Part shown: one piece after another, positions 1,035 to 32,032 of the stretch
Layout of the letters: each line of letters begins with the position of its first letter
Numbering within the stretch: the stretch's first letter is position 1
Assembly: GCA_964035545.1 (NCBI GenBank)
Contig: CAXIUT010000199.1
Coordinates: forward strand, 1-32,032
Length of the DNA stretch: 32,032 nucleotides
Source of the DNA: Bugula neritina
Taxonomy: Eukaryota > Bryozoa > Gymnolaemata > Cheilostomatida > Bugulidae
Direction: 5' to 3'
The notes under the pieces: generated by a model
The model's input: only the letters and a program-made list of their open reading frames with translations
Databases searched by the model: none
What the model was told of the DNA's origin: nothing
Position numbers and translations under genes: made by a program

Positions 1035-1263
1035 CAATAGAAATTTTAAAAAATAATTTATAAATTAGAATGATTTTTTTAAAAAATTAATTGATATATT
1101 TGTCGGTATTAGATAAAATAATATTCTTATTTGATATCTTCAAATATCAAAATATGAAATTTAGATTTATTTGTATCTTCAAAGATGAATAAATATCTTT
1201 TGAATAACATCATAGATAAATAGTAACTAAAAACAAAATATAATAATAATATTTTTGAGAGAA

Positions 1264-2134: not shown

Positions 2135-2196
2135 TTGTTGAGAAATATCTTATCAATATAATTCCAAATCAGAATTAATTTCTTATATAAAAAGTT

Positions 2197-3352: not shown

Positions 3353-3387
3353 TCTTTATTATTTTATCTGCAATAAATATATTAACC

Positions 3388-3966
3388 ATGCTGCCTTATA
3401 GACTGAAACCTCCAACAAGTCACTAACTGAGATATACACAGGACTCACCTATATATTCTGAACCAACAATTGCTTTTAGTAATCGAAAACTTAAAGTAAA
3501 GGTTCAAGATGATCACCTAGAAATTAAAACCATATAAAAGTAGAGCACAAATATCAAGGAAAAAAACTATAGTCAATTCCTCTTCTTAAAAATTTACGCA
3601 TATCGAGTGATAAAATATCTATTTTGAAATCAGCTAAAAATGACTATAATGTTTTTTATGCGTAAAAAAAAGTCAAAATAAACTTATAATGATAAGGTCA
3701 TGATAGTAAATGGAGAGAAAAAGGAACCACAAAGAAGTATCTCTCATCGAAGTCAAAGAAAATAACCTTCCCAAACACTTGATAATTTCAGATATCAAAG
3801 TTTAACAATGTTAGGTAGAGGAAGTTCAATTTAAAGTCATTTTTTTACTAATATCTTATAAAGGTCATCATCTTTACAAGTTGAAGGAAAACCAAAAAGT
3901 ATGTCAACTTCAAGGTCACCAAGTAGGTATTCATCAGGTTCATAAGAAAGGCATATCAAATATTGA
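3388..3966 (+). CDS. Hypothetical Ser/Arg-rich protein, frame uncertain
   Basis: I do not recognise this gene. An ATG at 3388, 35 bp after the phosphotransferase stop, opens a frame with coding-like composition. To reach the final TGA at 3964-3966 the frame must change twice: one base seems missing in a run of seven As near 3560, and either a 25-nt GTC...AAG intron (3673-3697) or another indel joins the middle to the end. Assembled this way the product is about 184 residues. It is mixed charged at first and rich in Ser, Arg and Pro at the end (SMSTSRSPSRYSSGS), which suggests a disordered, phosphorylatable tail. No membrane segment or known domain is visible. The last part (about 3700-3966) is the most convincing coding stretch. 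Confidence 0.45.
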
Positions 3967-4162
3967 TTTAAATTATTTTCTATATTATTTTGATCTATTT
4001 GAAATGTTAGTAAATTGATTGAACTTAGTAAAATTATTTTTAAAAAATTAATTAAGAATGGTTGATCTTAATTATGATTGGTTAATTTTTGTAGGTTATC
4101 AGGAAATTATTATTTCATAGGGATCAATTTTTCCATAATTTAATTTATTTTTATTCTATTTG
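3967..4162. other. Intergenic, AT-rich
   Basis: 196 bases between the unknown gene and the ABCG copy. They are very AT-rich with no convincing ORF or repeat, and presumably hold the 3' end of one gene and the promoter of the next. Confidence 0.5.
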
Positions 4163-5979: not shown

Positions 5980-6017
5980 TCCATAATTCAAATATCATAA
6001 TATTATTATTTTATTAA

Positions 6018-7766: not shown

Positions 7767-7857
7767 ATATTTGATAAATATCAGACATAATTAAAACAAC
7801 TCAAATATTATCTTTTTCAGTGAAGTTAAGATAGTTATAAATGATAATTGTTGATGA

Positions 7858-8175
7858 TCATTCGTAAGGATTTAGTTTTTTTAGTTCTTTTTCTCCATGG
7901 GCATATGAACATTGATCTTTGTATCGACAAAAGCCTCGTTCTTCAAAGTTTTTACATAATCTGGTCTTATACTTATTACTCCTAACTACGTCTTATTAAT
8001 GTTTGAATTAGCAATTATCACCTTTCTTGCATTAGTTTTTCAAAAAGTATCTGCAGACTCCTTCTCTTTCCAACCTGAAAAACTCTTCTTCCTGTCCCTA
8101 CTCACATATATTAAGTCTAAAACTAGGAGGTTTTATCTCATGTATCGAATTAAGGGACTTTTAAAGGTCCTTCAT
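7858..8175 (-). CDS. Tandem CCCH zinc-finger protein
   Basis: A small intact gene of 105 residues without an intron, too broken by TAA/TAG to be seen under the standard code. It holds two CCCH fingers: C-x7-C-x5-C-x3-H (CRYFLKNQCKKGDNCEFKH) and C-x8-C-x5-C-x3-H (CKNFEERGFCRYKDQCSYAH), separated by about 20 residues. The second matches the tristetraprolin/ZFP36 spacing exactly, and both are followed by basic residues. Proteins of this kind bind AU-rich RNA and tune mRNA stability; that role is inferred from the family. The start ATG gives MKDLEKSLNSI and the stop is TGA at 7858-7860. It lies 90 bp upstream of the aminopeptidase P start, on the same strand. Confidence 0.88.
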
Positions 8176-8314
8176 TGAGTAGTTTTTTCATGTGACTATT
8201 ATTTATTCAAAATATCTATTAAGTTCAAATATCATGACTCTATTGATATTTTTAAATAGTGATAAAATTATCAATATAAAAAAGTAAATGCTGACAATCA
8301 TATTGTAATAAGGA

Positions 8315-10989: not shown

Positions 10990-11245
10990 ATCATCATTGT
11001 AATAGTTAGTAAAATATCAAAATAGATTTTATTTACATTCATCATATTCAATATATATTCTTATACGAATATACTATCTGCTATTATTGTGATATAAAAC
11101 AAAAAAAAAATAGAAGAGACAGGAATATGAACTTCAAAAAGAACAAGAAATACTAAACTTATGAATTTAAATTATTTTTTTTCATAGTCAAAATATCAAA
11201 TAATTGGTGATTAATCAAAGAGATAATCTTTTTATAAATTTATTA
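10990..11245. other. Divergent intergenic region
   Basis: 256 AT-rich bases between the carboxypeptidase and UBR starts, with an A run near 11101. It must hold promoters for both genes. I see no defined motif and no ORF worth reporting. Confidence 0.5.
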
Positions 11246-14200
11246 ATGAGACCTATTCGACATCTTCTCAAAATTATCGAAATAAAAAGGGGAAAAACAC
11301 TATTTTAGGACAAAACAAAGTAGATTATAAACGAGAAATGTCCCAGATTAGAACATTTCTATACTTTTCTTATGGACACATATCAATCAAAGACAAAAAT
11401 ATAAGTCTTAGGTTTCGAATCAAAAGTTAAAAGTTAACTAGATAACATAAAATATCCAGATAAACCAAGTGTGAGTCTTACATGTGGAAAATAAGATAAA
11501 AATGGATGTAAGATAATATCTATATAGTCTATTTTTGCGATGATTGTGGTCTTTCAGAAGGCAGCTGCTTTTGTCCTGACTGTTTTGAAGAAGATAAGCA
11601 TAAAGGTCATATGTTTTCTTTTATTAATCAATAAGGAGGATATTGTGATTGTGGAAATATGCATCTCCTTAAGAAAGAAGGATTCTGTAAAAATCACACC
11701 TAGAATAAGCAATAAATAATCCCCAAAGAATAGCTAACCCAGTATCAATATTAAATGGCATTTTTAATGTCAATTGGAACCCTTTTATTACTTGAAAATC
11801 CTAAAGATACGAAATAAACATCAATAATATTGAAATCTATTCTCAGTTATTTGATATAACTAAGTCAAAATTCATTATACTATCAGACTATTCTTGTTTA
11901 AGCTTTGTTGACTAATATGAAAGGAATATTTAAAAGAAAATAAGGATCAATTATTCGAACATTTCTTTTGAATAAATGGCCTGAATAAATCAATAAAAAG
12001 ATAACATAAATATTGCTTATTTTACTTCATAAATAGAAATTAAAAATGTAGGCTTTACCTACAGTATTCGAGTTGATATCAACTAGAGGTTAAATATTGA
12101 AATAAAATTTCAATATGGTCTAAGATTATATGTATCAAACAACAACACATAAATAAAAAATATAAGAAATAATATTCGCTCACTATCATCATCTTGTTAT
12201 ACATGAGTAGCCAGTGTAGAGTACATCATCTACTTTGCTTGAGTAATTTTATAATCATATTTATATACTTTAGCCTAATTTATTTATGTAGATGATGATG
12301 CTTATTTTTAAAACTTTTTCATTGAAGAAATGGGCGAATATTATCAATTTGAAGTAGGATTTAGTAGTAGATTCATAGTTTTTACATGAAGTGCTATTTA
12401 ATTTATTTAAAATGTTCTATCAACAACCATAGATTTAGGGTTTGGTAAAGTAGTGTCTTGTGAAACTGATTAAAGAATCTTTTGAAATGTTGATCAGTAA
12501 AAAGAAAGAGTAATAATTTTAGAAGATTATTCTTATTATTTTTACTTTCAGTGTAAATACTTATATAAATTTATATGATGAAAATATAGAAACAATAAAA
12601 ATATAGGAGTTAATACTTCTTTTCATTTCCTAAGAACATGATATTAAAAAAGTAACAAAAGTTCTAAAATAGGCTTTGATGTATAAAATATCTGAGTACT
12701 CCTTTTAAAAAGATGAAAATATATTTTGTTACTAAACTATGATCAATATTTCCCTAGATTATTTATCTTTCAAATATTTACTTCTCATTTATCAGCGTTT
12801 AAACAAAATAGTAAATAATAATCAAAATAGTCTAATCTAAGAAAATTTGAATAAAATATCATCATTGCTTAAAGTTAAAGATTGGAGTAAAAAGAATTCA
12901 TCAAATAGTGTGTATGTCCAGGCATAGTTGAGTCTTTTATCTAAGAATATAAATCTTTTGAAAAATGTTATCTTTATAACAGAATCATAGATTCCAGAAC
13001 TATTAATATCTATACTGTTAAATAAATAAAACATAAAATAAAAAACCTTTTAATTTTTAAGATAATTAGCTACTTTATGCAAAAAGATGAGTAAAGTAGA
13101 ATTTAAAGATATTGTTTCTAATTGGATATCAGCTTAAAATTTGTATTTGAAATAATTTATTATGAACTAATATTAAACAATTCGAAAGGAATAAAATAGC
13201 TAGCATTATATTAAAAGTAATTTGAGTTGGAGTTCTGTTTTTTGTCATTATTAATCAAATTAATAAAAATATTTAAGATTCAAATCAAAAAAGATTAATA
13301 ATATGATAAATCTTAATAAAAAATAGTTTCAACCATTTAACATCAAAGTTATCAAGCAAACGATTCAGATATATAAGGAACTTATCATGAATGATCGATT
13401 TTTATCAAATTAAAAACTAAAATAAAAATATTCTTCGATAGTAAACAGTTATTTCTAATTTTTAATACTGTCTGACCTTTAAATGAACTGTTTATAGGTA
13501 AAGATGGAATTATAACTTTTAGTGAATCATAAAACTATGAAGAAGATAATATCTAAATAGAATTAACTTCTTATAAAATGGTATGAAAAAGCTGATCAAT
13601 TGAATTCTTTAAATAAAAATAAATTCGAAGGAAATGATAAAATAAAAGTTGCAAAATCAAAATAGAAAAGAGATAAGATCTTACAACATTTGAAGCAAAA
13701 GCAAAATAAAGTGATTAGTCAGATGGATTTAAATCAAACTCAAACATAAAATAAAACAGAAAAATTATGTATTATATGTAAATGTTCATAATAAAAGAAG
13801 CCTTTATATTATCTTTGTCAAGTAAATTAAAGTAATCTTTTGATGAAAAGTATGTTAAAAACAAATAAAAGTATACTACTTTTTACTACGTGTGGTCATC
13901 TGATTCATTAAACTTGTTTAACTTAAAATCTAAAAGCTTCATAGAAATATGGAGATAAATATCATTGTTTTCTATGTAGAAAACTTTCTAATTTGAGAAT
14001 TCCTTTAAGTTATGATAAAATTAATAAAAGCTATACTAAATAATTTTATTATGAAATACTGACTATTCTTTCTCTTGATAAAAAATAAAAAAAGAGATAT
14101 TTGTTATAAGCATTGCAATTAAAAGATTCAAAAAATATTCTTCCTTAGATAGATAATAAGGTAATAAAAATTGAATAGTTTTATAAAAAGATTTATGAGT

Positions 14201-15063: not shown

Positions 15064-16875
15064 TCATTCAAGTTTCGATCTTAGCTTCCAAAGGAAGAAT
15101 AGGCTGAGAAATCTGAACGCTATGGCAAGGACAATTAACAAATATATACTTAGCCATAGATCTGTGTTCAAATTAAGGCTATCAAAGTTTGTTTTATCTG
15201 TAGCAAATTATGTTTCATTCTCAAGCCAAGCTGAAAAAGCATATTTCAGAGGTGATAGATATTCAAGCCAACCTATCCAAATTGGAACATTTGCTCGATT
15301 TTTCATGTAGCCAGAGAAAATGATAAAAGGTACTATAAAGGCATTCGCTAGTGTTGAAACTGCATTTGCATCTGGGACTATACTACCTAGCATTAATCCT
15401 AAGGATGTTCCATTGACAAATATCAAATAAGCTACAAGGTAGAAGATGAAAAATTGTTTGACAGTTGCTGAAAGGTCAACAAACCAGTATATAATGAGAG
15501 TTTCTACTAGAGGAAATATGACTGAAAAAGGAATTTCTATGATACTTCTACTTAAAAAGTATGTGAAAGTACTGTATAATTTTGATGATTCTTCCTTTGC
15601 AAAGACATCACGCTAACTTGGAAACACTAGTGCAACTGGAACTAATCCAAACATCATTGTATTGGTAGCATTGAAGATGAAAAATCCAGTTAGAGCTCTC
15701 CAATTTAAATCATCAGCATAATTACCACTGAATTGATAGAAAAGGCCTCCCATGTAAAGAGATAAGAAGATAATTTGTATAAATCTTCCCCATATTATCA
15801 TTGGATTTCGAATAACGGTTAATAAGTCACGATGTAATAATGTTTTAAGAGAAGTTCCAAAAGGTATTGTGATCTATCTTTTGACAATAGATGTCTTATT
15901 TTCATTATTTAGGGAGTTTTCAATAGAAGGATAATTATATTTTTGATAATTTTATAAATATCGAGAATATCTTTATACATTTTCTGGATCTTAGTGATGC
16001 ATTATTTGCATAAAATAATCAGCTGGATTCTCGAATTCTTTGCAAGTTAAGCCAAAATGAAAGGAAAAGTAATCAACAGCTTTTACAGCTGGTCCTTGAT
16101 AAATTAGATGACCTTCAACCATCAACATTATTTTATCGAATTATTCATAGATATCAGCATTAGGTTGATGGATAGTCATAAAGATAGTTTTTCCTTACTT
16201 GGAAGCTAGTTTTTTAAGATATTTAACAATGATAAAGGAAGTAAGTGAATCTAAACCTGAAGTTGGCTCGTCAAGGACAAGGACTGCTGGATCGCTGATA
16301 AGTTAAAAGGCAATCGATGTTCTTTTCTTTTATCCACCAGAAATTGATTTTATAATTCCTCCCCCTACAAGAGTATCAAGACAATTTTATAATTTGAACT
16401 CTTTAGATAGTCTATTAATTTTAGCTTTCTTTTCTTCTTCATCAAACGCATTCAGTTTAAGATCAGCGGCAAATTAAAGTGTTTCTCTGACAGTCAGAGT
16501 CTGTATAAGGACATCCTGTTGCATCACATAGTTAGCAAAATATCCAAATTAATTGTATGTAAAAGGTTTGCCATTAGCAGTGAGGGTACCTGTAAAATTA
16601 TTTTAAGGCACTCTACATGCAAGCACATTGAGAAGAGTAGTTTTTCCTGCTCCTGAAGCTCCCATAATAGCAGTCAATTCTCCAGCTTTGAAGATGCCTG
16701 AAACATTCTTAAGGATTTATTTTTCTCGATAATTCTTAAAGCATAGTGTTGAAGATGGTTATTCCTTATTTTAAACTTAAACACTATAAGTGATATTTCT
16801 AAAGGCAATATCAATTCCTTTACTTTTTTCAGACAGAGAATCTGTCCTCATGGTCTTCTCAGTTTAGTTCATCAT
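15064..16875 (-). CDS. ABCG-type half-transporter, copy B, intact
   Basis: Uninterrupted 603-residue frame, no intron. Order: short N-terminus (MMNQTEKTM), ATPase domain with Walker A GASGAGKT (residues about 70-80), [21 protein letters not shown] (Glu here is GAG) and IHQP, then a membrane domain with about six helices, ending ...[11 protein letters not shown] and TGA at 15064-15066. The conserved FP-x-E-R motif after TM2 has its Glu encoded by TAG. It is a paralogue of 4163-5979 on the opposite strand, about 9 kb away, with patches of near-identity around Walker A and the Q loop. A half-transporter must pair, so copies A and B could have formed a heterodimer before copy A was damaged. Substrate unknown. 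Confidence 0.94.
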
Positions 16876-17234
16876 CTCTTTACAATCAATAAATATAATC
16901 GTTTATCAGAAAAGCTAAAAATAAATATAATTTTATAATTCTAGCATTGTAAAATAAGCTTGGATAGGTTATAAATATTATAGAATTAATTTTCAAATCA
17001 ATTTCAATTATTTTAATTGATTTTACTCTATAAAAGATAAACTTAATAAATAGGAAATACTTATTTTCTCTTTCTAATACTGGTTTTTGGATGTCCTTAC
17101 TATCATCAATTAATAATGATTTAATCATAGTTAGCAAACAGTGATATTATTAAAAAAGTCATCTTATGCAACAATTTCTGATCTCTTTAATATTTAAAGT
17201 TTATTTCAATCCTATTATATATCACTATTTGTTC
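16876..17234 (-). other. Intergenic with a doubtful small ORF
   Basis: 359 bases between the ABCG copy B and SNARE starts. A minus-strand ATG at 17137 opens 83 codons ending in TGA at 16886-16888, just 10 bases before the transporter start. The first 26 codons (MLTMIKSLLIDDSKDIQKPV) look coding-like; the rest is low-complexity Ile/Phe/Leu. A 19-nt GTATTT...AAG segment could be an intron giving a 41-residue product. I cannot tell a real micro-gene from chance, because with TGA as the only stop ORFs of this size are common in AT-rich DNA. Confidence 0.25.
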
Positions 17235-17945
17235 ATGACAGAACTAGATTAGTCCAAATAAGCTATATCCAATGATCTTATTGATCTAGATTAATTCATC
17301 CAGAAGTCTCCTCTATTCCACAGTGATCGCTCACAATGGAGAAATCAAGTCTTAACTAGAATCAGAAAAATAAAAAAATAAATCATGTATCTTGAAGAAG
17401 GTATTAAAGATCTATCTGATTCACAATCTTATAGTTATGGAGGATCTATTAAATCTTTTAAAAAATCTGTTTAAAAATTTGAGTATTAGTGTGATAAAAG
17501 AGATCGAGGGAATTCTTTTTCAGGAAATCAAAAGACTCCTATCATTCAAACCAATGAATAAAAGAGATAAAATGCAAGACAACAGGTCTTTAACAGAGGA
17601 GATCAAGCTCTTGATGCAGCTAAAGAGGCTACTACCGATATGAAAAGAATAAATGAGAAAGCAATTGAAATGTCAGCCAACATAAACCTTGAATTAAATG
17701 CTCAGATAGAACAATTAGACAGAATGAAAGCTATAACTAATGATACTGAATCAACTTTGAAAAAGGCTAAGAGAAATATAACTTATTTTACCAAGGCTCT
17801 TTAATGTGATAAATGTATGGTAGGACTTTTAGCTTTGATTCTGTTGTGTTTGGTAGCTGTAATAGTTTTGGCAATAAAGAAAAGCAACCAAGGTGATGAT
17901 GGAGGTGATAGTGGCGATAGTGGAGATAATGGAGATAGCGGATGA
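17235..17945 (+). CDS. Qb-SNARE (NPSN-like), tail-anchored
   Basis: Intact, 236 residues, no intron. An N-terminal helical region (residues 1-100) is followed by a SNARE motif (about 135-195) with heptad hydrophobics, a zero-layer Gln in LNAQIEQLD, and the FTKALECDKCMVGLL junction typical of Qb-SNAREs such as plant NPSN11. One transmembrane segment follows (about 195-214: GLLALILLCLVAVIVLAI). Such proteins anchor in endomembranes or the plasma membrane and zip with other SNAREs to fuse vesicles. Unusually, the segment is followed not by the end but by about 22 residues of Gly/Asp/Ser repeat (GDDGGDSGDSGDNGDSG) on the luminal side. The TGA at 17943-17945 lies 55 bases before the first internal telomeric array. 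Class assignment (Qb rather than Qc) is by resemblance. Confidence 0.85.
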
Positions 17946-17999
17946 TCATTCTATTAATTAGTTAAATATAAAATGGTATTAAATACAATTAAATCATGA

Positions 18000-18091
18000 G
18001 GTTGGGGTTGGGGTTGGGGTTGGGGTTGGGGTTGGGGTTGGGGGTTGGGGTTGGGGTTGGGGTTGGGGTTGGGGTTGGGGTTGGGGTTGGG
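18000..18091 (+). repeat. Internal telomeric array 1, (GGGGTT)n
   Basis: A pure G4T2 array inside the chromosome: GGTT, six GGGGTT, one GGGGGTT, seven GGGGTT, then GGG. It is in the same orientation as the right-end telomere and is not followed by CCCCAA, so it is not a head-to-head chromosome fusion. It lies between the SNARE stop (17945) and the open 3' end of the CK1 kinase gene. The single five-G unit resembles the variant in the left telomere, suggesting real telomerase product rather than a simple microsatellite. Confidence 0.95.
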
Positions 18092-19176
18092 CTTTATTCT
18101 TCAATAATTTTTCTGAGAAGCTGACTTTGAACACAATTTGAAAAAGAATCAAATGATTTTCGACCATATCTCATTATTTTTGAAGAATTATCTGTCTTTT
18201 ACTTAGAATTACTTCTATCTTTTCTGGGTTAATACTTATTATCTGGAACTTGAAGAAAATTACTTGTATTCAGACTTACTCTTTTGACTTTGCTTCTTTC
18301 TTAAACATTTTTTATTATGATATTTGGCTCCATAACTATTGTCTTATTTCTTCTAAAAAGATTTTTCAGTTTGGAGTAATTAGGCTATTATCCAACTTTT
18401 AGTTCGCATATATACTCAAAAGCATTACGAAATGACATGGGCATTTCAGCAAAAAGGGTACTTTTATATTTCATTTTTAACAGTTTTATTTTTTAAAGTT
18501 TTTTGTTTTCAGGAATAGATAGTTTACTCCAAGGAAGTCTTCCATAAAAGAGATAAGCTAAGTTATAAAATAATGATTAAAGGTCATCCTTTTTATTTTG
18601 TTCAAGCATATTATGAGCCTGAATACTAGCATAACGAGGAGTTCCAACAAATCCTTTAAAGACTTAACGTTTCTTTTTCTTTGACAGTTAAAAAGCTAAT
18701 CCAAAATCAATCAGATATAGCTTTCCCTACTTATTTTTCATCCAATTATGAGGTTTAAGGTCTTGATGTATAATGTTTTAAGAGTGAATTCCTTCCATGG
18801 CCTTTAACATTTAGATAGCTAATTAAGATATTTCAGAAGAAGAGTACTCCTTTTTTTTGTTGAGATCCTCTTCAAGTAGCTCCATTTCTAAAAAATATCC
18901 ATTTTACCATTATCCAGAGTGATAAATGGTCGGAATACCAGGTTTTCCTTGAAGTTTTTTCAAGAACTATATCTAACACTTAAGAGCTTTTTTCTCTTTT
19001 GATTTTGAAATTTTCTCAACTTTAAGAGCAAGAAGTGCTCCATTCTTTTTGCTGATCACTTTTAAAATTTGACCAAAGCATCCCTCTCCGATGACATCAA
19101 TTATTTTATACCTAGAAGCAAGAAAAGGGTCTTATTTAAATTTATAAAGTACTTCAAGATACTTTTTGTTCTACAT
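18092..19176 (-). CDS. Casein kinase 1-like Ser/Thr kinase, 3' end meets the telomeric array
   Basis: Frame from ATG 19176 with no intron or indel; 361 codons to the array edge. Kinase landmarks in order: glycine loop GEGCFGQ (residues about 30-36), LALKVE Lys, HQDLKPHN catalytic loop, IDFGLA, then the CK1 signature GTPRYASIQAHNMLEQ...DDLESL. The catalytic Arg of HRD is Gln here, while Asp is kept. A Ser/Arg/Lys-rich tail (about 290-361) ends ...QLLRKIIEEES. No TGA occurs before the array: the last TAA (18094-18096) reads as Glu here and the frame enters CCA-ACC repeats (Pro-Thr). If the array is skipped (18001-18091 absent) the frame reads EEESS then TGA at once, so the original stop was probably displaced by the array. 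Confidence 0.85.
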
Positions 19177-19209
19177 TTCCAGAATAAGAAGAAAAAAATA
19201 TTAGAATAA

Positions 19210-19790
19210 CAATTATAATTAATATAATCGACTATTCTTCTTTTGAAATGATAATAGATAAAGTCACAAAGTATAATTTTTTAATTTAACTACGATTTAA
19301 GAACATTAAATAATTGTTTTTTTGATTTTCTCTCATTTAAAGAGTAAAATTGAATTTTAGAATATTTTGATTATTATTTAGTCATATTAATTAACAAAGT
19401 ATGAAACAAGGAAATTAATTTTACTTTATAATTGATAAAATCATATTAAAAATCATTAATTTTTTTTACAAAAATTTTTCGATTAAAACCTTAATAATCA
19501 CAACAATATTAAGAAATTTCTCGTAAATAATTTAAATCTATCAAGAAATAATCTATTTTATTGTTTCTTATCAATCTAAATACATATTTTTCAAAGAATT
19601 CCATTTATTGAATCGAAATTTTCATAGCTTGTCAAAGGTACATTCCTTCTCTTCAACAAAGTGGTGAATTGTTCTCTCACTTCTGAAGAAATATCGCAGT
19701 CTTTCCTGATACTTTATAAATAGTTTCATTTTTTGATACTGTTTAAAGCTCTGTTTTATCAACTTCTTTTCATCATTTAAATTTTGAGTA
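19210..19790 (-). other. Possible relict ORF between divergent kinase and kinesin genes
   Basis: 618 bases separate the kinase and kinesin starts. On the minus strand, 19622-19790 reads as coding-like sequence (...SFKQYQKMKLFIKYQERLRYFFRSERTIHHFVEEKECTFDKL) ending at TGA 19622-19624, with an ATG at 19729. One frame over, from ATG 19625, an open Lys/Tyr/Ile-rich frame runs toward the kinase start. This may be a broken gene of unknown function with a frameshift near 19624, or chance. The region must also contain promoters for both neighbours. Confidence 0.28.
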
Positions 19791-19794
19791 TAAC

Positions 19795-21964
19795 ATGGCT
19801 GAAAAATAGTGCGTTAAAGTAGCAGTCCGCTGCAGACCAATGTCGACTAATGAAGAAAAAAAGAACTTTGATTCAATAGTCGATGTTTGTCCATAGAAAG
19901 GAGAAATCGTAGTACATAACAAAAAGGATAGTGGATAAAAAGAAAGAGTTTTTAGTTTTGATATGACCTTCTAACCAGGTTGTCACCAAGAAAGTATTTT
20001 CAAGCAAGCTGCTCTTCCCATTATTGAGAGTGTTCTTGAAGGTTATAATGGAACTATCTTCGCATATGGTCAGACAGGTACAGGAAAAACTCACACAATG
20101 GAGGGTGTGAAACATGATGAACAGCTGAAAGGAATCATTCCTCGTACATTCTAACGCATAATAAACGCAATCAATGGTACAGTTTCATTTTATTATAGGA
20201 ACTCCTGGGGTACAATTTCTTGTTAAAGTGTCTATGCTTGAACTTTACAACTAGTAGATCGTTGATCTCTTTGCAAAACACGGAAATAAACTCCAAATTC
20301 ATGAAGATAAAGATAAAGGAATCTATGTTAAAGATCTCAGTGCTGAAATGGTGACTACTGTTTAGGAAATGAACAAAAAGCTAAAAGAAGGAGGATAAAA
20401 TAGACATACAGGATCAACTTAGATGAACTAAAAATCATCACGATCACATTGTATTTTTATGATTCGAGTTGAACAAGAATAAATGGTTTAAGGTTAATCT
20501 AAAGTAAGAGCAGGAAAATTAAATTTAGTTGATTTGGCAGGATCTTAAAGACAGAAAAAAACTCAAGCAACTGGAAGTCGTTCGAAAGAAGGCATTCATA
20601 TCAACATGGCTCTTTCTACTCTTGGTCAAGTTATTAAGGCTCTTGTATCAGCAAATGTTTCTCATATTCCTTATAGAGATTCAAAACTTACGAGACTTTT
20701 ACAGGAATCACTTGGAGGAAATGCAAAAACAGTGATGATTGCTAATGTTGGACCAGCAGATTATAATTATGATTAAACAATGAGTACTCTTAGATATGCA
20801 TCTTAAGCTAAAAAAATTAAAAATAAACCTAAAATCAATGAAGATCCTAAAGATGCCATGATTAGAGAATATCAAGATTAAATTGAGAAACTAAAGAGAA
20901 TGTTGGATGGAAAAATGCCAATAGAAGGAGTTATAGTTGAAAAGAAAGTCAGGAAAAAACCCAAAGATATTGCTTCAAGATTAGCTAAATAATCATAAAA
21001 AATAGAGAAACAAAAAATGTAATTATTAGGAAAAGATGAAGAAGCTAAAATGGAATTGTTAAGGAAAAAAGAAGAAGCTGATAAGCAAAGAGAAGAAGAA
21101 AAGTTAAAGCAAGAAGAACTAGCACTTAAGTTAAAAGAAATGAAAGAAAAGTTGATGCATGGAAATAAATTAAAAGAAGAAGCAAGATTACATTAAAAGA
21201 CTTTATTTGATACTCAGCAAGAACTTTAAGAAAGAAAGCAACATGAACGTAGACTGAAGGAACAACTAGAACAAAAGATAATTGATATTGATCTTATTGA
21301 AGATAAAAATACTGGTTTACAAGATCAAGTTTAACATAGACGAAAGCAACTAGCAAAAGTTAACAATAAACTCAAAGCTGCATATGAAGCCAATAATGAT
21401 ATTCAAGAGTTCATGGTTCAATAAAGAGAATAACTTTAAGAGTAAAACAGGTCAATTGTGAGAGAACTCAAACTGGTTAACATGATCATCGAACATTTTG
21501 TACCTATCCATGAGGTAGCTGCCATTCAGCATCGTCTTGAGTTCGATTAAAGCTTCGATGACTGGGTCATTGTTTAAAGAAATAAAGCTCCTAAACCTAA
21601 TCCAGGTTCAGCTCTTGGTTTTAAGTTTCCTCTTTGCAGTGAAGGTCGCTTTGCTATTGCTTGTGGAGATGATAACCCAAGGTTTAGGCAAGACAATATT
21701 CTCCAGATGGATCTTGATCAGGTTCCTTCAACCATTGAAGATTTTAGATATGAAATATCTCCAACAATTATGGAAAACTTGAGTGTTGTGCTGAATGATA
21801 ATGAAGAATAACAAAGAATTATCGCCAAAGAAGAAAGACCTAACGTTTATATCGATGACCCTGAGAGAATGAATAAATAATAAGTTATGAAGCAACGTGA
21901 GAGTACAACAAGAGCTCGTTCAGCTAAGAACATGAGACCAGCGAGTGGCAAGAAAAAGCGGTGA
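19795..21964 (+). CDS. Kinesin-2 family motor (intraflagellar transport type)
   Basis: Intact 715-residue product after removal of a 22-nt intron (20177-20198). The N-terminal motor (residues about 5-345) shows RCRP, the P-loop GQTGTGKT (about 92), switch I region NEKSSRSH, switch II LVDLAGSE, and [11 protein letters not shown]; the Glu of NEKSS, GSE and YDE are all TAA. Then a neck and long coiled coil (about 370-560), and a small tail whose [23 protein letters not shown] resembles the KIF3 tail. Kinesin-2 walks to microtubule plus ends and drives anterograde intraflagellar transport; the subunit (KIF3A/B-like or homodimeric) cannot be fixed. It ends with a basic [14 protein letters not shown] and TGA (then TAA TGA). 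A decayed copy of its tail lies at 23478-23735. Confidence 0.93.
20177..20198 (+). other. 22-nt intron in kinesin gene
   Basis: GTACAG...TAG in the motor domain. Splicing gives [21 protein letters not shown], the conserved kinesin strand; a 17-nt alternative gives a non-homologous frame. Confidence 0.88.
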
Positions 21965-22033
21965 TAATGAACCAATCTATAATTATATTATGAATTATTT
22001 TAAAAAGAATAATTATATTCAAAGTTATATCAA

Positions 22034-23418
22034 TCATTCCACCTTTCTTTTTATTTTTTAAAACCATTTTTTACATCTTTTATTATAAGAAAAAACACAT
22101 TTGAAAGTAATTAATAGAATTAAAAAAAGCCCTATAAACATGAAGTAAATTATGGTAATAGTGTTTTTTTATTCATAATGTTTTATAACTGAGAAAGCAC
22201 AAACCAAATTTATTGATAGTAATCCTAGTAAAAGTCCCAAATTTGTTAATAGGTAAATAAAGATCGACAAAAGATAGTAACAAATGATGTTAAAACATGA
22301 AAAAAATTAACTTCTAAATGGTTTAAAATTTTCTTTCTTTTCTTCTGATTATTTTTTTCTTTTATTTTAGATTTTATTTTCAAAATATTCTTCAAATACT
22401 TTAAAATCATTTAATGATTGTTTTAGATTTTTATTTTAAAGATTTTTCAACTATAATTGTTTTGCTTTACTGTGAACTACCTTAATACTCAAATAAATGG
22501 TTTCGAGTTGATCAAGATTATACTTATCTGAAATCAAGGGAGAACAAATATTTGATTTTTTCATACGCTATGAAAACTAAATTATTTCTTTTAAGCTCAT
22601 ATCATGAAAACAAATATTTTTTTAAAATTATTAAAATTACCTATCTCTTGAAGGCTATCTATCTATTGGGTTTTATAGAATTACTTCATCATGATCAATA
22701 GGTGGTAATTAAAACATTGGTTATAATTTTAGATTTACATTCTCTTTTAGATTTTATTCAGTCTTAGTATTTTCTTTGAGTTGATTTATTGTCTATTCTC
22801 CCTTCATTAATAAGTTGTAATTAATTTATAAAAGGTTATTGGAAATCACCAACATCTATTTTTCTTAATTTTTCGTTTGTCAACTATCCCATAGTAAGTT
22901 GTTGGAGTTTCAATTTCTTTCTTTTTTTTATAATCTTCTGCCTATGAATCTTCTTATTCCACTGAATCATCTCTGTTATCATATGATATTTTCTCAAACA
23001 CTTTTTTTTTACCTTTGTTCACTTTATAGGCTATTCCTTAGTATCTCATAACTTGTTTAATTGCTTAGTTTATTTTAATTTTAGAACCTTCTGATATGGA
23101 TTGATTTTTGATCAAATAAAATGAGGCATTGACTCTATATTGGGCTAAAAGAAATTAAAAATGTAACCTTTCTAATGTTTCTAAATCTTTTATTTTAGCT
23201 TAAATTTATTTGTCATTAAAAGATGGAAGTTGTTAGATAAGTTAGCTTGGGATCAATCTTTATCCACGATATATAATATCTCTAAGAAGGTTTTAAAGTT
23301 TTTTTCTCAGTTTACTTATCCTAGATCTAAAAACTAATACTTTGTAAGGAGAAGAGCAACCCATAACGACAGATAGTTCTTAAATAATATTAATAGGAGA
23401 GCTTATAAATATATCCAT
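22034..23418 (-). CDS. Unknown protein, charged/coiled-coil with C-terminal membrane segments
   Basis: I do not recognise this gene. ATG 23418 opens MDIFISSPINIIEELSVV. The first half is charged and helical (residues 1-190), with an acidic patch VEEEDSEAEDYKKKK; the second half is Glu/Lys/Asn-rich and probably coiled-coil. At the end two or three hydrophobic stretches (CYYLLSIFIYLLTNLGLLLGLLSI and IIYFMFIGLFLILLITF) precede a basic tail KRCKKWFEKIKRKVE, so it may anchor in a membrane by its C-terminus. One base appears missing in the T run 22859-22863 (plus strand): the upstream frame ends at TGA 22846-22848 while the coding pattern continues one frame over to TGA 22034-22036; corrected length 461 residues. 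Convergent with kinesin, 69 bp apart. Confidence 0.62.
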
Positions 23419-23477
23419 AATAAAAATATCAATATCAATATTCATCTCAAAAAACTTAAGTTATTAACAAAACACAA

Positions 23478-23735
23478 ATTGTTGAAGAAAAAAGAGAAAC
23501 TGATGAGCAAAGAGAAGAAGAAAAGTTAAACAACAAGAGCTTGTTCAGCTAAGAACATGAGACCAGCTAGTGGCAAGAAAAAGCGGTGATAATAGACCAA
23601 TCTATAATCATATTATGAACTATTTAAAAGAATAATTTTATTCAAAGCTATATCAATCATTCCACTTTTCTTTTTATTCTTTAAAACCATTTTTTTACAA
23701 GTTTTATTCTAAGAAAAAAACATTTTGAAAAATAA
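23478..23735 (+). pseudogene. Decayed duplicate of kinesin tail and its 3' flank
   Basis: This stretch is a shortened copy of the kinesin 3' region. 23478-23530 matches the coiled-coil segment at about 21058-21110, and 23531-23735 matches 21906-22115, so about 800 bases are missing between. The copy keeps the tail codons for [14 protein letters not shown], the TGATAAT stop context, and even the 3' end of the neighbouring minus-strand gene (KRKVE and its stop). It has point changes throughout and no motor, so it cannot be functional. It sits 60 bases upstream of the membrane-protein gene's start, so it may have carried in or displaced regulatory sequence. Confidence 0.85.
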
Positions 23736-24301
23736 AATTTTATTTATCTTATATTATAGATTTTAAATATTTATTGGAAATCATAAGCATATCTTTTCTT
23801 AATTATTGTTTTTGAATTAATCTAATTTTTGGTGAAGAGGTTCCATATTTTTAATAACAAATAAGGAAGAGAAAAATCGAATTTAAGTAAAATCTATTTC
23901 AAAAGGATAAAAATATAAGTTGATTTATGATAGATTTTTCGTAAAAATATTTAAATGAAAATATTGATATCACATCAGATGAAATTGAAACATATTATTT
24001 AGAATTTAGTTTTTTAATTTTATAGTTCAATAATTGTTTGTCTAATTATCAATAATAATTCTTCTTTAAAGCTTTCTAAGTAAAAATTTATCCAAAACAA
24101 ATAAATAAAAATCCAATAATTATGAACTACAACTAAACAATATATTTTATAAAAATCATAAATATATCTATTCGTGAAAACATTTCTCCATTTAAATGAA
24201 AAATACCACTAAAGTTATTGCTTTTAAGGAAACTTGATCTTTTAAAACTTATTCTAAAATGGTCTTATAATATAGAATTCAAATCAGTTGGAATATTATC
24301 A
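23736..24301. other. Long AT-rich intergenic region
   Basis: About 566 bases with no ORF I can support and no repeat beyond A/T runs. It is the 5' flank of the GTPase gene and probably contains its promoter. Confidence 0.5.
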
Positions 24302-27198
24302 ATGAATAATTCAAAAACTCACTCAAGCTTTGCGATCCCCTTCATCACCTACAAATAAGGATAAGGATTCGCTCTTTCTTCCGAAGCTTAATAATTCCTG
24401 ACCTCTCTACCTGAAAATAGACAACTAGGAATTGTCTCTATCGTTGGAAAATATCGAACAGGCAAAAGTTTTTTTGTTAATAGAGTACTTCTAGATCAAA
24501 AAAAAGGAGGCTTTCAAGTAGGACCAACGATAAATCCATGTACAAAAGGGCTTTGGCTCTGGAAAAAGACAATACCAAGCAGTTCGAATTAAGATATGGA
24601 CATCATTATGATCGATACAGAAGGATTTGGAGGCATGGACTAGAATACCAATCATGACTCACGTATTTTTCTCTTTTCCTTGCTTTTGAGTTCATATTTC
24701 ATTTACAATTCAGTCGGAAGTATAGATTAAAATGCACTGACTACTCTAAACTTAATTATTAATCTTGCTAAATAGATTCAAACTAAGACCAGCTCCAAGG
24801 GAGGATAAGATATAAGTAGCTTTCCAGCATTTTTATGGGTTGTCCGTGACTTCACATTGATGCTTCAAGACAAAAATGGCAACAAAATAAACTCTAAATA
24901 ATATCTTTAAAACGCTCTTTAACTTCAAAAGGGGTCATCTGATGCAGTAGAAAATAAAAATAAGATTAGAAGACACTTAAAACATTTTTTTAGAGACAGA
25001 GATTGTGAGTTAATGGTTCGACCAACATAAAGATAAAAAGATTTACAGAGATTAGACTAAATAGACAACTCTAATCTGAGACCTGAATTTGTTAATCAAG
25101 TTTAATCGATCAGAAGTAAGATATTTGGACAGGTGAAAACTAAGAAGATGAACGATAAGGGACTAAATGGTCAACTATTGGTTAGTTTATGCAAAGGATA
25201 TATGGATGCAATTAACAAAGGACATATTCCTAATGTTGAAAGTGCATGGTTTTATGTATGTAGAAGTTAGGGAATAAGGGCAATAAAAGAAGCTACATCA
25301 TATCTAGAAAAATAAGTTGATAAAATAGTTCAGGATCCTATTGAAATTAGTAAATTTGGTTAAATTAAAAATTAAATAAGATAAAAAGTTCTTTAAAAAT
25401 TCAAGAAGAAATCACTTGGATCAGAAGAAAGTCATCCTGATTTGTTGTAAAAACTTGAAAAAAGATTAAATTAATATATGACAAATCTGACAAAGAAAAA
25501 TAAAACATTGTGGGAAGATAGATATAGGTCTTAAACTTAAAAATTAACAGATAATATAAAATAAAAGATATATAGTGACTAATATGCTTAATTCAGTGAT
25601 TTTGTTTTAGATTTTGAGATAATCAAGTAGGAATATAACCAAGTTACATCTGATGGAGATTCGTTATAAAAGTGGAAATATTTTAATGAGATTTCTTAGA
25701 ACCTCTATAAACTAGCAGGATAGACAATAACTACTAAAATAAATAAGAATCTCAATCATCAGAAAATGATGCTTCAACAAAAGATGAACATCCAATCTGT
25801 GGAGTTATAATAGAGAAATAAGTAATTATAGATATAAAAATAACAGTTGAAGACTAGAGTTGAGTATTTGTAGAAGTAAAATGTTAAAGTGATAGCTCTG
25901 GAAGACAATCATAAAAGTAGAGCACTTCAGTATAAAAATTAACATGATAAAATGTATGAAAAGTATAAATTAATCTACAACTAACATGAAGAAACTCTTA
26001 TAGAAGTTGATAAATTGAAAAAATAGTCTAAGAAACAAGTTGATAATGGTATTTAGTAGACAAAAAATGAGCTTTCCTTTTTAAAATCAACTCTTGAGAA
26101 AGAAAGAGCTTTACATGAGATGTAAAAGAAATATATGGAGTAATAACTTGATAGATATAAATAAAGAGCTATGAATCTTGAAGGATAAAGTAGAAAGTTA
26201 AGAACTAACAATGCTAAGTTGATTTCAGATTATTAATAGCTTTAAAATAAATATGATTAAAGAAAAGAAGAGGCATAAATTCTTGAACAAACTAATTCAT
26301 CATACAGTAAAAAGATATAAACTCTTATTGCATAAAATTCAATGAAAAATTAACTGATGAATGATCAATCAGAATGGATGTTGTAGAAATCATATCTTTA
26401 AAACCAAGTATCATTTCTTAAAAATACTCTTAATTAAAATAAAAGATTACATGATGCTCTTCTAGTTGCTCTTCAACAATCAGTATCAGCTTCATAATCT
26501 GAAGGTAGCAGAGAATTAATAGAAGCTAATAAAAATTTATCTTCTGCTTTATAGAAAGTATAATAAAGATGTAAAATACTTGAATAAAAATATTAGAGAG
26601 TGAAATAATTCAAAAAGGTGATGAAAAATTGTCTATCGATGCAATGTATGGGTTGTTCTAAATGGATACAAACTCATGCTTTTTCATTACATGTTGAACA
26701 ATGTTTAAGAGGAAGTCAATCTACTTTCAAAGAACAAATCTATTATGACTATAATAAATAAAATCTTCATATTTCTGTTGTAGATGCTTGTAGGGAAAGT
26801 CATGATAAGAAAAAGCCATATACATAATACAAAATTCAAATAAGTTTGGGTAATACTAAATGGAAGGTAACTAAACGATATAAGTAGTTTTCTGAACTGC
26901 AACAAGTACTTTTTATTTAATTTAGATGTTGATAAATCGTTTTCCATCTATCAAGTATCCTCCGAGTTGTAATTATTTGGTAGATTATAACAATATGGCT
27001 GCTAATAAGCAAAAAGTAGTTCAAACATAAGAACGAAGAAAGACTTTACAGCAGTATTTGAGAGATCTGAGTAAAATGTAGGATATTAGAACCAGTTAAA
27101 TCTTTAAAAACTTCCTTAACTTCCCTGATAATGGATAATCGGAATTCAAACATAAATACATAGATACTCCTGAACAAAAATAACGACTCTTTATGTGA
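24302..27198 (+). CDS. GB1-type (GBP/atlastin-like) GTPase with zinc motif and C-terminal PX domain
   Basis: Intact 958-residue product after splicing a 20-nt intron (26906-26925). GTPase domain (residues about 20-300): P-loop GKYRTGKS (about 49-56), CTKGLW switch I, DTEGFG (about 106), and the RD of VVRDF that replaces N/TKxD in this family. A long helical/coiled-coil stalk (about 330-770) follows. A Cys/His cluster CMGCSKWIQTHAFSLHVEQC (about 780-800) may bind zinc as a C2HC finger. The C-terminal PX domain (about 840-955: YKIQISLG-x-TKWKVTKRYKEF ... RFPSIKYPPS) would bind phosphoinositides such as PI3P. GBPs self-assemble on membranes and atlastins tether them; here the PX domain could supply membrane targeting, inferred only. 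VPS15, the PI3-kinase regulator, is the next gene. Confidence 0.87.
26906..26925 (+). other. 20-nt intron in GTPase-PX gene
   Basis: GTACTT...TAG. Splicing joins FSELQQ to MLINRFPSIKYPP and so restores the PX domain. Confidence 0.9.
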
Positions 27199-27283
27199 TT
27201 GCTTCAAAATTATAATTAAAAATAGTTATTAATAACATATCAAATATCTATTTTTGAAGGTTTATGATTATTATATTATCAAT
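27199..27283 (+). promoter_or_regulatory. Short AT-rich gap, probable VPS15 promoter/5' leader
   Basis: 85 very AT-rich bases between the GTPase stop and the ATGGGC that begins VPS15. No motif is named; function is inferred from position. Confidence 0.4.
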
Positions 27284-30200
27284 ATGGGCAAGGGGTTGGG
27301 GTTGGGGTTGGGGTTGGGGTTGGGGTTGGGGTTGGGGTTGGGGTTGGGGTTGGGGTTGGGGTTGGGGGTTAATCGGAAAGTTCTCATTAGCAATAAACTA
27401 TTCTAAACAAATTTCTTCAAATATTGTTAATTTAGTATCAAAATGGCAGTTTTCTTTAGAAGAGATAACACTAATATACAATAATATCTAAAGGTATATC
27501 TACCATCATAAAGGCTTTTAATATTATTCAAAGTTTAGTCGAAAGATATAAGTGTACACATATAATTCCCATGAGATTGTTGGAATTGAAAGAATTCAGA
27601 GATAAATAATTTCAAAAATATAGTCAAAATTTTATTGTGGCTGTGAGACAATATGTGCATATGACTCTTGAACAAAGACTTTAAAGCAAACCTTGTCTGA
27701 CATTCGAATAAAAAAGTAATATCTTGATAATACAGTCTGGATAATATACCAAATGATCTTCTCAGTCTATACAATCCATGATATTTTCAATATTTTTCAT
27801 GGAAACCTCAGAACTTCAAATTTCCTTCTTAATTCTCAAAATTATCTATTCCTTACAGACTTCTCATCTTACAAGCCTATCTACCTTCATCAGGATTCAC
27901 AACTAGGACTATCAGAATTCCGTTTGTTCTATGCTTCTTCTGTATAGAAATGCAATCTTGCTCCTTAAAAGTTAATATAAGGAGATATTTGCACTTTTCA
28001 GCATTCTAAAAGTTTATTTAATTTTACTGAACAGCCTTAGAAAAATGAGAATGACTCTCCTAAAAAAATAAAAAAAAATTGGTAAGATAATAGTGCTTCA
28101 ACTCAAATGAAAAAACTTAAAATGATGGATATGTTTTCATTGGGCCTAAGTATTCTATAGGTTCTAAATAATGGACGTTCCCCAATGACCTACTCAGATC
28201 TTCTTCGCATGAACAAGCAAGGATTTGATTTTTAACCTATTATCAAAGAATCTACAGATAAATTGCCAAGAGGATCAACAGTGATAGCATAACTTCTTAG
28301 AGATTTACTCAAAACTAATCCATAAAGTAGAATTAGTGCTACAAAAGCTCTTCAGAAAGTATCCAGTATTATTGATCAATAAATGTATTTGCTTATATGG
28401 ATGTGTCTTTCAGCTTTCACTAAAAGTAGTTTTTCATCTTGTGATCTAAGAATCAAACTTATCTATGTACTCATTGATTTTATTGAAATTAATATTAGAC
28501 AAAGTGGATATCAATGGTCGAACAAACCACCTCGTTGTCTTGCTAGTTTCGATGCTTTGAAGATATTTGTATAATTAATACAAAAAAATAATCTTTTTAA
28601 TCCTAAAATAAAAGGAGACTCCATTTTTGAAAAATTATTTCATCATTGCTAAAAAACACAAAACTAGCCTTAAAATACTCCTCTTAAAGAATAAATAATA
28701 TTCGAATAAACAGACTAAAGACAAAAATTCTTTATAAATTTATCTAAAAGAACATCAATAGCAAAAAGACTGTCATTGGGTAACAGTCATTACAAAATAA
28801 AACAACTCTGTCCTCCATCACTCAAACAAATCGGACATCTCTTCCAACATCAGTATACGCCAGTCAAACTAACTAGTGTAGAGATGCAACCATCTCATTA
28901 ATAGCTCTTACTACAATCATTTACTAACAATCAATATTATCGCTAGGAAAGAATAAAGGAACAGCAATACTATCAAACTTGTGAAATTATCATCAAAATT
29001 ATATTTTCATGTATGAGAGGATGTAAATATGTTGCTAGCAAGTTGCTAGGAATAGAAATAATCAGTTTGTTAGGGAAAGATTGTAGTGATAACTTCAGGT
29101 TGACTAAATTACTACCTTATCTTATGAATCTATCTGAAGATAGTGATATTTCTGCAGGTAGATAAGCATTTTTTACTTTGCTTAACCTTTTTTATGAATT
29201 TATTGATCCTTTTCATCATGAATAAGACACTAAATACTACTAAATAATTCTCTAATATATAGCAAATATCATTCGACAATCAAAAACTAATAAATTACGA
29301 CCAACTCTCTTCGCTAACTTCCGCTAAGTCTTCTCTATTCTTTAATGGCTATAAATACACTATAAAAGATTTAGTAATACCCTCAAAATCAATCATTCTA
29401 GACTTTTAGATGTCCTTAAAGCGAACTACGGATATTTCTCTAAATAATAAGTCAAATTATTACTCAATGGCAACATTCCTGAACACTTCCTTCCAGATAT
29501 GTTTGAATTTTATCTCAGTCTTATAAATACTGATCGACTTGAAGGGTTCAAACTCAGTCTTAGTCTTGCTAAACATATCAATCCTCTAACACATAGAGAT
29601 ATTCTGGAAGTATTTGATTCATGTGTTGAAAGCGGATTGGAATAATCAGGAGTATCTCTTGTTTATTCGATTAAATATTTTTCTCTTAGAAAAATAACAA
29701 CTAGTTCAATAATTCATAAAATAGCACCACATGTTATCAATCCAAGTAAGTGGGTTCGAGATGAGGCATTAAACTATGTGAAGATGTGTTTGAATGAATT
29801 TCCTCCAACAAAGAATTACTTTTTCTTTAAGGATACATTTACACCTCCTTTTCCACTCCAGCCAGAAGACATAGATGAAGAAGTATTATTACCTCCGATT
29901 CTTAAAGATTCAGATATAGATTGGTATGATAAAAAATTAAAAATAAAAGATCGTTCTCCAACTTTGATACTATTTCAAAATTATTTGTCTAAAATAAGAA
30001 ACATAAAAGAAGATAAAAAGAGAGGTACTTAGAATATTGATAAATGGAATTAAACTTTCAAAACAGTACAATAAGTTGTATAATAAGGAAAACTATTTTA
30101 ATTCTAGACTTATATTAAACGACAACTATAGCTACTATATGAGTACATTATTCTAATTTAGATATAATTTGCTTTATTATGTTCTTAACTTGCCTAATAG

Positions 30201-31872
30201 ATATTCTCCTCCTGAGAAAGATAAGGCTCAAGATAAAGCTTATCAAATTATAGTGGCTTTTAAGAAGGTAGGAAAAAATATTGATCTTGGGACAATTGAT
30301 TATTAAAAAAAAGAACTTTTCTAACAGTTCTAAGGATCTATTAGTATCATTTATATTTATTAAGATTCTACTTTTTAAAGATTACTTTCAAAGAAAAATA
30401 AAAATTTAGGTGAACCAGTTTCAGATAAAATCAAACTCGCATAAGCTATCATCATCATAGGAGAAGTGCTTTGTAGATTTTAAAGTTTCAAAATAAAACC
30501 AATACCAAAATTAGGTACCTACATTCGACAACCTTTAACCTTTGAGAAGTTAGCCAAACCAAAAGGCATCCTTGTTTCTGAGGTTTTCGAGCATACAGAT
30601 AGCATAACTTGTCTTGAAAAAGTAGCTGATCAATTTATTCTTTCGGGATCAGCTGATGGTTCTGTAAGAGTATTTGACTCCAGAAAAATTCAAACTAATG
30701 TGACAACATGTTCATAAGGATGGGTCTAACTACGAGGATAAGGCTAAGAGAAAGCAAAGATAGCTGCTATTGCTTCTTTTGATCAAACATACTCAGCTAT
30801 TGTAGGATCCAACAAAGGTCAAATTCGAGTTTATCCAATTTAAAGATTTCACAAGATGAACTCAGGTAAAAATGATGAGATTGTGAAATATGCGGTTGGA
30901 GGGTAATTATAGAAGATAGTAACTTTAACGAATTAACTTAAAAACTAATGTTTTTGTTATATTACTGCTGATGGCAATCTTGGTGTTCAAGATATTCGTC
31001 TTAAATCAAAAGCAATGACTTGCTCTATTGGTAGATAGAGAGGCCTACCTAAAGCTTTATGTGCCACGAATAGACAATCAATTTTGATTGGCACTATTGA
31101 TGGTTATGTCGTTAATTTCGATATCCGCTTCAACATCGTATCTAGTGTCTTACAACTACAAAATTAAAATTAAACTTTGCCTATTTCAAATATTGTAGTA
31201 TCACCTTATTTCAATTAACAGCATTAACCTCTCTTTGCCTTTACATATCCTTCAAATCACTTTTAGTTTTGTTGTTTCAATCTTCAGGATAACAGTCATG
31301 AATTTGGTCCATAGAGACAGGTGACAAGCATTAACTCATAATAGATTATATCAACTCCTTATTTTGTTAACAGAACAAGTGACTAACAATTCAAAATATG
31401 TCGCAATAGTCTTATGTGGAGAAAAACCTATGAACAACTAAGTGATTTTAACAACAACTTCAATATTTTTGACTATCTTTCTGATCCACTTACAAGAAAA
31501 TAAGCTAAAATACGATAAATATGGCTAGATAATTCAAAAAATAGGTACAATCAAATATCATCTCTCTATCAAAGAAAACATCTTCCCTTTCTAGAATTTT
31601 TACACACAGGAGTACTTACATCATGTAATCCGCTTCCCACTCTTCCACATGATCTCAAACAGAGACCACCATTCGCACTACTATCATAACGAAAGGAACC
31701 AGTTCGTTAGATATATGACTTGGAAAGACCATTGACAAGTTTACCGAATCCATCTCACAAGTTATTGAGTTTTTCAGGAGAGGAAACAAAGGAATATTTT
31801 ACTTGTTGTCGAGTTTTGCCTAATTTGGTTGTGGCTGGATGTCGCAATTCTCAATTAAAGATCTATATATGA
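27284..31872 (+). CDS. VPS15: VPS15 (PI3-kinase regulatory subunit, pseudokinase-HEAT-WD40)
   Basis: VPS15 recruits and activates the class III PI3-kinase VPS34 for endosomal sorting and autophagy. The kinase-like domain shows FSIKMAVFF (lysine region), EKIWIIYQM, HGNLRTSN (in place of HRD...N), LTDFSSYKP (DFG region, as in VPS15) and LAPEKLIEGD, whose APE Glu is TAA at 27966-27968. A long helical-repeat middle ends near residue 1050 and WD40-type repeats fill the C-terminus. Introns: 27494-27513, 27716-27735, 30143-30161. No indels. From ATG 27284 the frame reads Met-Gly-Lys (a myristoylation-type start, typical of VPS15), then (Leu-Gly)n from the telomeric array, then VNRKVLISNKLFETNFFKY, giving 1,509 residues. 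The next ATG (27443) would delete the start of the kinase fold, so 27284 is preferred. Confidence 0.88.
27292..27370 (+). repeat. Internal telomeric array 2, (GGGGTT)n
   Basis: Twelve GGGGTT units and a final GGGGGTT, 79 bases, same orientation as the right telomere. It begins three codons after the VPS15 start and is read as Gly-Leu repeats. The five-G unit at the end is what puts the repeat in frame with the downstream VPS15 sequence. Confidence 0.95.
27494..27513 (+). other. 20-nt intron 1 of VPS15
   Basis: GTATAT...AAG. Splicing joins EYLK to AFNIIQSLVERY; the unspliced frame soon stops. Confidence 0.85.
27716..27735 (+). other. 20-nt intron 2 of VPS15
   Basis: GTAATA...CAG. Splicing creates the conserved EKIWIIYQM segment preceding HGNLRTSN. 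Confidence 0.9.
30143..30161 (+). other. 19-nt intron 3 of VPS15
   Basis: GTACAT...TAG. Needed to carry the frame from the helical middle (QLELLYE) into YNLLYYVLNLPNRYSPPEKD. Confidence 0.82.
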
Positions 31873-32032
31873 TTCATGTAGTAAATCATAATACTAATGA
31901 GATTAGTATTAATTGATTTGATATCATATTTGAAAGTGAAGTTGGGGTTGGGGTTGGGGTTGGGGTTGGGGTTGGGGTTGGGGTTGGGGTTGGGGTTGGG
32001 GTTGGGGTTGGGGTTGGGGTTGGGGTTGGGTG
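31873..32032 (+). repeat. Right subtelomere and telomere, (GGGGTT)n
   Basis: After the VPS15 stop come 68 AT-rich bases, then a (GGGGTT)n tract from 31941 to the end of the window, finishing GGGTG. Orientation is right for a chromosome end. With the CCCCAA start of the window this implies the sequence is one complete small chromosome of 32 kb. Confidence 0.96.

Follow-up and report, generated by a model that had tools for sequence, protein, structure and literature searches.

Internal GGGGTT arrays in a telomere-capped ciliate contig as likely ends of shorter chromosome copies stitched in by assembly

The two GGGGTT arrays that lie inside a telomere-capped contig of 32,032 bases (contig C190, here called the window, from an assembly with 295 contigs totaling 215.8 Mb) are likely to be the real ends of shorter copies of a chromosome that assembly pasted into a longer one. 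Although the sequence contains them, there is probably no molecule that carries them at these places. The case for stitching rests on the strand of the arrays, the phase in which they end and the register of one gene; general tests of continuity across the junctions did not confirm it. The alternative chromosome ends that such arrays would mark are most likely an already known ciliate phenomenon and not a new structure. Arrays of this kind could be mistaken for fusion sites between chromosomes, for repaired breaks or for a novel telomere biology, and a strand test combined with a test for replacement of the array's own length separates stitching from biology without recourse to raw reads.

Terminal and internal telomeric arrays of the window

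The window, which contains no N, begins with a CCCCAA telomere on the minus strand (positions 1 to 99; 99 bases, starting CCCAACCCC) and ends with a GGGGTT telomere on the plus strand (positions 31941 to 32032; 92 bases, the final bases being GGGTG). Both ends are likewise capped by telomeres in contig C11. Two further GGGGTT arrays, both on the plus strand, lie inside the window. The first (positions 18000 to 18091; 92 bases) includes one G5 unit and ends at the phase GGG, and the second (positions 27292 to 27370; 79 bases) has G5TT as its last unit, its end being GGGGGTT and not the GGG phase. The longest exact run of the telomere unit across 30 simulated windows with the base-to-base frequencies of the window was 6 bases. 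The coordinates and the simulation together confirm the starting claim of a sequence-only reading of this DNA, namely, that two internal arrays of one orientation sit within a capped contig; its description of the arrays as pure holds everywhere except at the G5 units, one in the first array and the last unit of the second. That reading had further remarked that only GGGGTT is present, with no pattern of head-to-head fusion, and the assembly has zero exact GGGGTT/CCCCAA junctions with 0 to 6 bases between the two units. A chromosome fusion site, in which GGGGTT would be followed by CCCCAA, is rejected on this count.

Gene content and ciliate affinity

When TAA and TAG are read as Gln, the genes of the window include those for an ABC transporter, a kinesin, a guanylate-binding protein (GBP) and a VPS15-like protein. 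Code 6 open reading frames (ORFs) with Pfam domains are thus found together with short, capped chromosomes, a combination that marks ciliate macronuclear DNA. The GBP ORF (positions 24302 to 26932, plus strand), which lies to the left of the second array, is a relative of the ciliate GBP-PX proteins; it is 99% covered by ciliate relatives, the best named of which are from Tetrahymena malaccensis (41%) and Paramecium tetraurelia (40%). These relatives indicate that the source of the window is an oligohymenophorean ciliate.

Two ORFs border the first array. One of 259 aa (positions 17166 to 17945, plus strand) stops 54 bases before it; this ORF appears by eye to be t-SNARE-like with a C-terminal anchor, and no Pfam family was found for it. 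The other, a protein kinase ORF of 390 codons (positions 18094 to 19263, minus strand; Pkinase match with an E value of 1.3e-30 on 17542-19176), enters the array without a stop, and its C terminus is hidden by the array or lies beyond it. Neither Rfam nor a tRNA scan gave a match in the window.

Orientation and end phase of arrays across the assembly

Internal arrays are not peculiar to the window: at least 251 exits from them were counted assembly-wide with two patterns, GGG followed by M (212 exits, 191 forward and 21 reverse) and GGGG followed by M (39 exits, 31 forward and 8 reverse). These patterns miss other exits, that of the second window array among them, and the counts are lower bounds. 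A third pattern, TT followed by H, gave 58 exits (38 forward and 20 reverse); contigs C1 to C9 account for 26 of these, and some others are inside caps. The sample for strand analysis comprised the first 100 of the 212 places with the first pattern and all 39 with the second.

Among records whose length is known and does not exceed 47.5 kb, 29 GGGGTT exits stand against a single CCCCAA exit, the latter from an array of 22 bases at C93:174. Records of at least 54 kb hold 21 of the 22 CCCCAA-oriented exits examined (these 22 being the ones listed among the 29 that the two patterns counted together), and, where checked, the records of this size that carry CCCCAA exits are scaffolds. Another 66 GGGGTT exits come from records of unrecorded length; all of the records with a listed CCCCAA exit had lengths. 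The long records also contain at least 22 GGGGTT exits, so no orientation ratio is claimed for them. In both C55 and C20, a run of exactly 200 N separates telomeres that face each other, and in C216 an array edge borders N; all three are long records. N can also denote withheld sequence in these data, but a run of 200 placed between two telomere ends is taken to be a scaffold gap. The orientation in which a contig is written is arbitrary, yet the strand of the arrays follows the written strand, which suggests that single contigs are one-oriented and that scaffolding flips some of them. Contig building in the written direction can produce such a bias, and a cellular process cannot. An array physically present inside a chromosome should be oriented independently of the written strand of its contig, and this independence was not found, with 29 plus-strand exits to 1 minus-strand exit in short records of known length.

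About 75% of the counted exits share one phase, GGGGTTGGG, which is also the phase of contig ends: outside C1 to C9, exits with GGG followed by M make up 212 of the 283 found with the three patterns. In the window, C10 and C11, the left cap begins with CCCAACCC, the complement of the GGG phase. This common end phase is present at the first window array and absent at the second. Sharing their phase with contig ends, most arrays stop at the point expected of a read that spans an entire molecule.

Several arrays are stacked, with spacers of about 90 bases in C53 and C55 and of 21 bases in C20, as expected of ragged ends that belong to one chromosome. The stacked arrays of C55 (L048:1667-1926) and C20 (L052:1447-1697) lie beside a chromosome end; those of C53 are in L067. 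Two exits 96 bases apart in C78 were considered as two arrays, a candidate that was rejected in favor of one interrupted array. Short CCCCAA runs of three to four units are found at L066:1-201 (C93, 16 kb) and in L061 (C202, 10 kb); these may be native repeats and not telomeres.

A VPS15-like gene across the second array

The second array is followed directly by a VPS15-like gene (PI3K regulatory subunit 4; positions 27371 to 31872, plus strand), for which PDB comparison names VPS15, with Pfam kinase and WD40 matches below the curated cut-offs and a reading frame that changes at least once. The codons that come first after the array, NRKVLISNKLFQ, align from residue 28 of P0121, a relative starting with MGN, and therefore about 27 residues are missing. 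The probable start of the gene, ATGGGCAA (positions 27284 to 27291, plus strand), is found on the left side of the array, with ATGGG placed 8 bases before it. If 79 bases are assumed to be hidden, the resulting 8 + 79 = 87 bases correspond to 29 codons and the upstream ATG is in frame, whereas a gap of 0 leaves it out of frame. An in-frame ATGGG located 28 to 30 codons upstream was found at 213 of 200,000 random segment ends, a chance test that was framed post hoc, once the ATG had been noticed.

Judged from these alignments, the flanks of the second array look like native neighbors, and the array appears to have displaced approximately its own length of native sequence. Coordinate arithmetic would replace an array's own length in this manner, and repair would not. 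The homology test exists at this one junction (27292), as does the register test of the replacement model, and the array concerned is one that misses the common GGG phase. The sequence-only reading had taken each array to carry a foreign next segment on its tip; at 27292, what follows is probably the native continuation minus about 79 bases. Exact insertion was also tried here and rejected: joining the flanks directly gave MG followed by KIGKFSLA as the start of VPS15, and P0121 shows the frame to be NRKVLISNKLF. About 120 bases past the array (window 27371-27760), the gene shifts its reading frame, which could reflect a small intron or a base error.

Tests of continuity across the junctions

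A gene model test covered 28 junctions: the window, C10, C11 and C14 supplied 8 of them, and the other 20 came from 19 of 20 further pieces, with arrays less than 200 bases from a piece end or from N excluded. At a gap of 0, these junctions gave a z value of -0.48. Seven control splits gave 3.4 to 6.7, those at random places reaching 5.5 to 6.7 and those in sequence with little open frame 3.4 to 5.0, a contrast that counts against clean insertion. At a gap equal to the array length, z was 0.13 to 0.15. Masking of exactly 81 bases at random positions yielded control values of 5.3 to 7.7, so exact replacement within genes should show, and it does not appear as a general pattern. When the left edge was placed in sequence with little open frame, the control values were 0.47 and 3.26 (0.12 and 1.41 with length errors), and those at random places with length errors were 1.13 and 2.18; the gene continuity test is weak if the ends fall between genes or if the lengths are inexact. 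A strand class test found no continuity (0.386 versus 0.403 when permuted; controls, 0.71 to 0.85).

At the level of single junctions, L036 has 233 and 366 codons in one frame on its two sides, but the length of its array is a multiple of 3, so insertion and replacement fit it equally. L034 has a frame of 368 codons to the right of the array, and an in-frame ATG is absent to its left. Open frames frequently run into the right side of junctions. Counts of rejoined frames and stop distances were mixed, and nothing general is drawn from them; a codon usage test on 30 codons had no power. Pfam searches with 20 edge ORFs retrieved only weak or subthreshold matches and no usable domain across a junction, and no such domain was retrieved with three joined ORFs in Pfam, with the joined L036 ORF in a protein database or with five edge ORFs in the PDB.

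Proposed origin of the arrays and its alternatives

In the explanation that we favor, the window would combine, as one assembled consensus, macronuclear minichromosomes that overlap and belong to an oligohymenophorean ciliate. Some copies would stop near 18000 and others near 27291, with GGGGTT added by telomerase, and the rest would run on. During left-to-right building of the contig, a telomere-ended molecule would have been overlapped with a longer one, the first read being kept to its last base and the longer read resumed from the corresponding coordinate, so that each telomere would overwrite approximately its own length of native sequence. The proposed stitching would also drop left telomeres. 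Such behavior would be expected of assemblers that extend a contig by the suffix of each following read. We infer both the existence, as molecules, of copies ending at about 18000 and about 27291 and the exact program step. Alternative telomere addition sites, with capped ends stitched into a longer assembly, were the first of three causes put forward in the sequence-only reading, and it is this cause that the strand bias, the end phase and the VPS15 register favor.

The second of those causes, true interstitial arrays left at repaired breaks, would have a break capped by telomerase and the capped end rejoined, leaving the array inserted between native neighbors. The single terminus phase that ends most arrays, the native appearance of the flanks at 27292 and the two long open frames that L036 unites in phase are all compatible with it, but the strand bias follows the written strand in short records, and insertion without loss would give VPS15 the wrong frame and leave it about 27 residues short. 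The empty site expected between native neighbors is, moreover, not intact: these residues are missing at 27292, and exact continuity is lacking over the 28 junctions at gap 0 (z of -0.48 versus 3.4 to 6.7 in the seven controls). We consider this origin quite unlikely. Library or amplification chimeras, the third cause, in which an end-repaired telomere is ligated to the broken end of an unrelated fragment, are simply unlikely. Random ligation predicts both orientations in short records as well as telomere-to-telomere junctions, and the observed values are 29:1 and 0; the VPS15-like gene appears to continue across 27292-27370, and spacers of about 90 and 21 bases separate the stacked arrays. 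This is so even though end repair of a telomere would yield a single end phase, open frames often enter the right side of junctions and the 28-junction continuity tests were negative.

Two further possibilities are less probable again. It is very unlikely that mature telomeres were joined in the cell to uncapped fragment ends during macronuclear development, so that minichromosomes would bear left-neighbor telomeres as internal marks at hundreds of sites. It is scarcely credible that scaffolding joined unrelated contigs and omitted the gap: 200-N gaps are indeed found in two long records and an N edge in a third, but both of the complete joins carry N with telomeres facing each other, and short, fully read records (the window, C10 and C11) are without N and yet have their arrays all on one strand.

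Relation to known systems

Known cases of alternative telomere addition are those of Paramecium bursaria (PMC7702705), Blepharisma (PMC9942806) and Oxytricha (PMC3558436). P. bursaria is described as having C4A2/G4T2 telomeres, a GC content of 28.8% and variable addition sites genome-wide, about 30% of which are in coding regions; most of its full-length minichromosomes are around 8 to 16 kb with telomeres at both ends, and its contigs were assembled from overlapping minichromosomes (PMC7702705). The window is similar in its G4T2 telomere and its GC content (29.1% versus 28.8%), and the median position of the first listed plus-strand array per record is 12.3 kb, with 8.8 and 20.6 kb as the quartiles over 81 records, which compares with 8 to 16 kb. 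Telomeric reads were mapped in P. bursaria, whereas the window is known from the assembly alone, and the likeness does not imply species identity, the closest named GBP relatives being those of T. malaccensis and P. tetraurelia at 41 and 40%. If the stitching explanation is true, the arrays also locate alternative chromosome ends in an oligohymenophorean, the molecules of which seem close in size to those of P. bursaria.

Oxytricha trifallax also has shorter isoforms nested in longer ones, which its assembly merges, and "multitelomere contigs" are named that may be alternatively fragmented chromosomes (PMC3558436). The resemblance to the window lies in the shorter isoforms within longer ones and in contigs with several telomeres; O. 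trifallax differs in its gene-sized chromosomes and G4T4 telomere, and its merging is said to obscure minority telomeres, whereas the window contig retains them. Blepharisma stoltei differs in its telomere unit, CCCTAACA, and in an expected molecule length of about 130 kb (PMC9942806). Vertebrate interstitial telomeric sequences are also telomere repeats inside chromosomes, at breaks, but they are reported as physical insertions (PMC2246262, PMC8537989), and the strand bias seen with the window argues against a physical array. No description of telomeres overwriting their own length was found in the literature searched, which is no proof that the effect is undescribed.

Large contigs and other sequence features

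The contigs C1 to C9, of 10.9 to 35.6 Mb, have kilobase CCCCAAA arrays within the first 10 kb in six of nine cases, a telomere different from the CCCCAA of the window. Searches of C1 to C9 with two window pieces of 2.5 kb each (15500-17980 and 27371-29871) found no match, nor did one with a 10-kb piece (2000-12000), the last being weaker, as the query's own place was absent from the results. With no match for the three pieces and with CCCCAAA telomeres, C1 to C9 were rejected as the germ line of the same ciliate; they are probably chromosomes of another organism, coassembled with the ciliate contigs.

The window contains two ABC transporter genes (4207-5979 and 15067-16875) in opposite orientations, which are 77% alike over about 1.3 kb. 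The right one is a single open frame of 603 aa, and the left one is split over three frames, for which decay, introns and sequence errors are alternative explanations. A direct repeat (window 900-1081 and 2000-2185) is 86% identical over about 186 bases. At L027:8552 (C14), the right flank of an array starts within one base of what by eye is a tRNA-like start (GACACTGTGGCCGAGCGGTTAAGGCG), and ARAGORN called no tRNA at this place. ARAGORN did report a tRNA with the anticodon CTA at L022:6787-6858 (C10), labeled tRNA-Pyl; it is probably a tRNA-Gln(CUA) of a ciliate that reads TAG as Gln.
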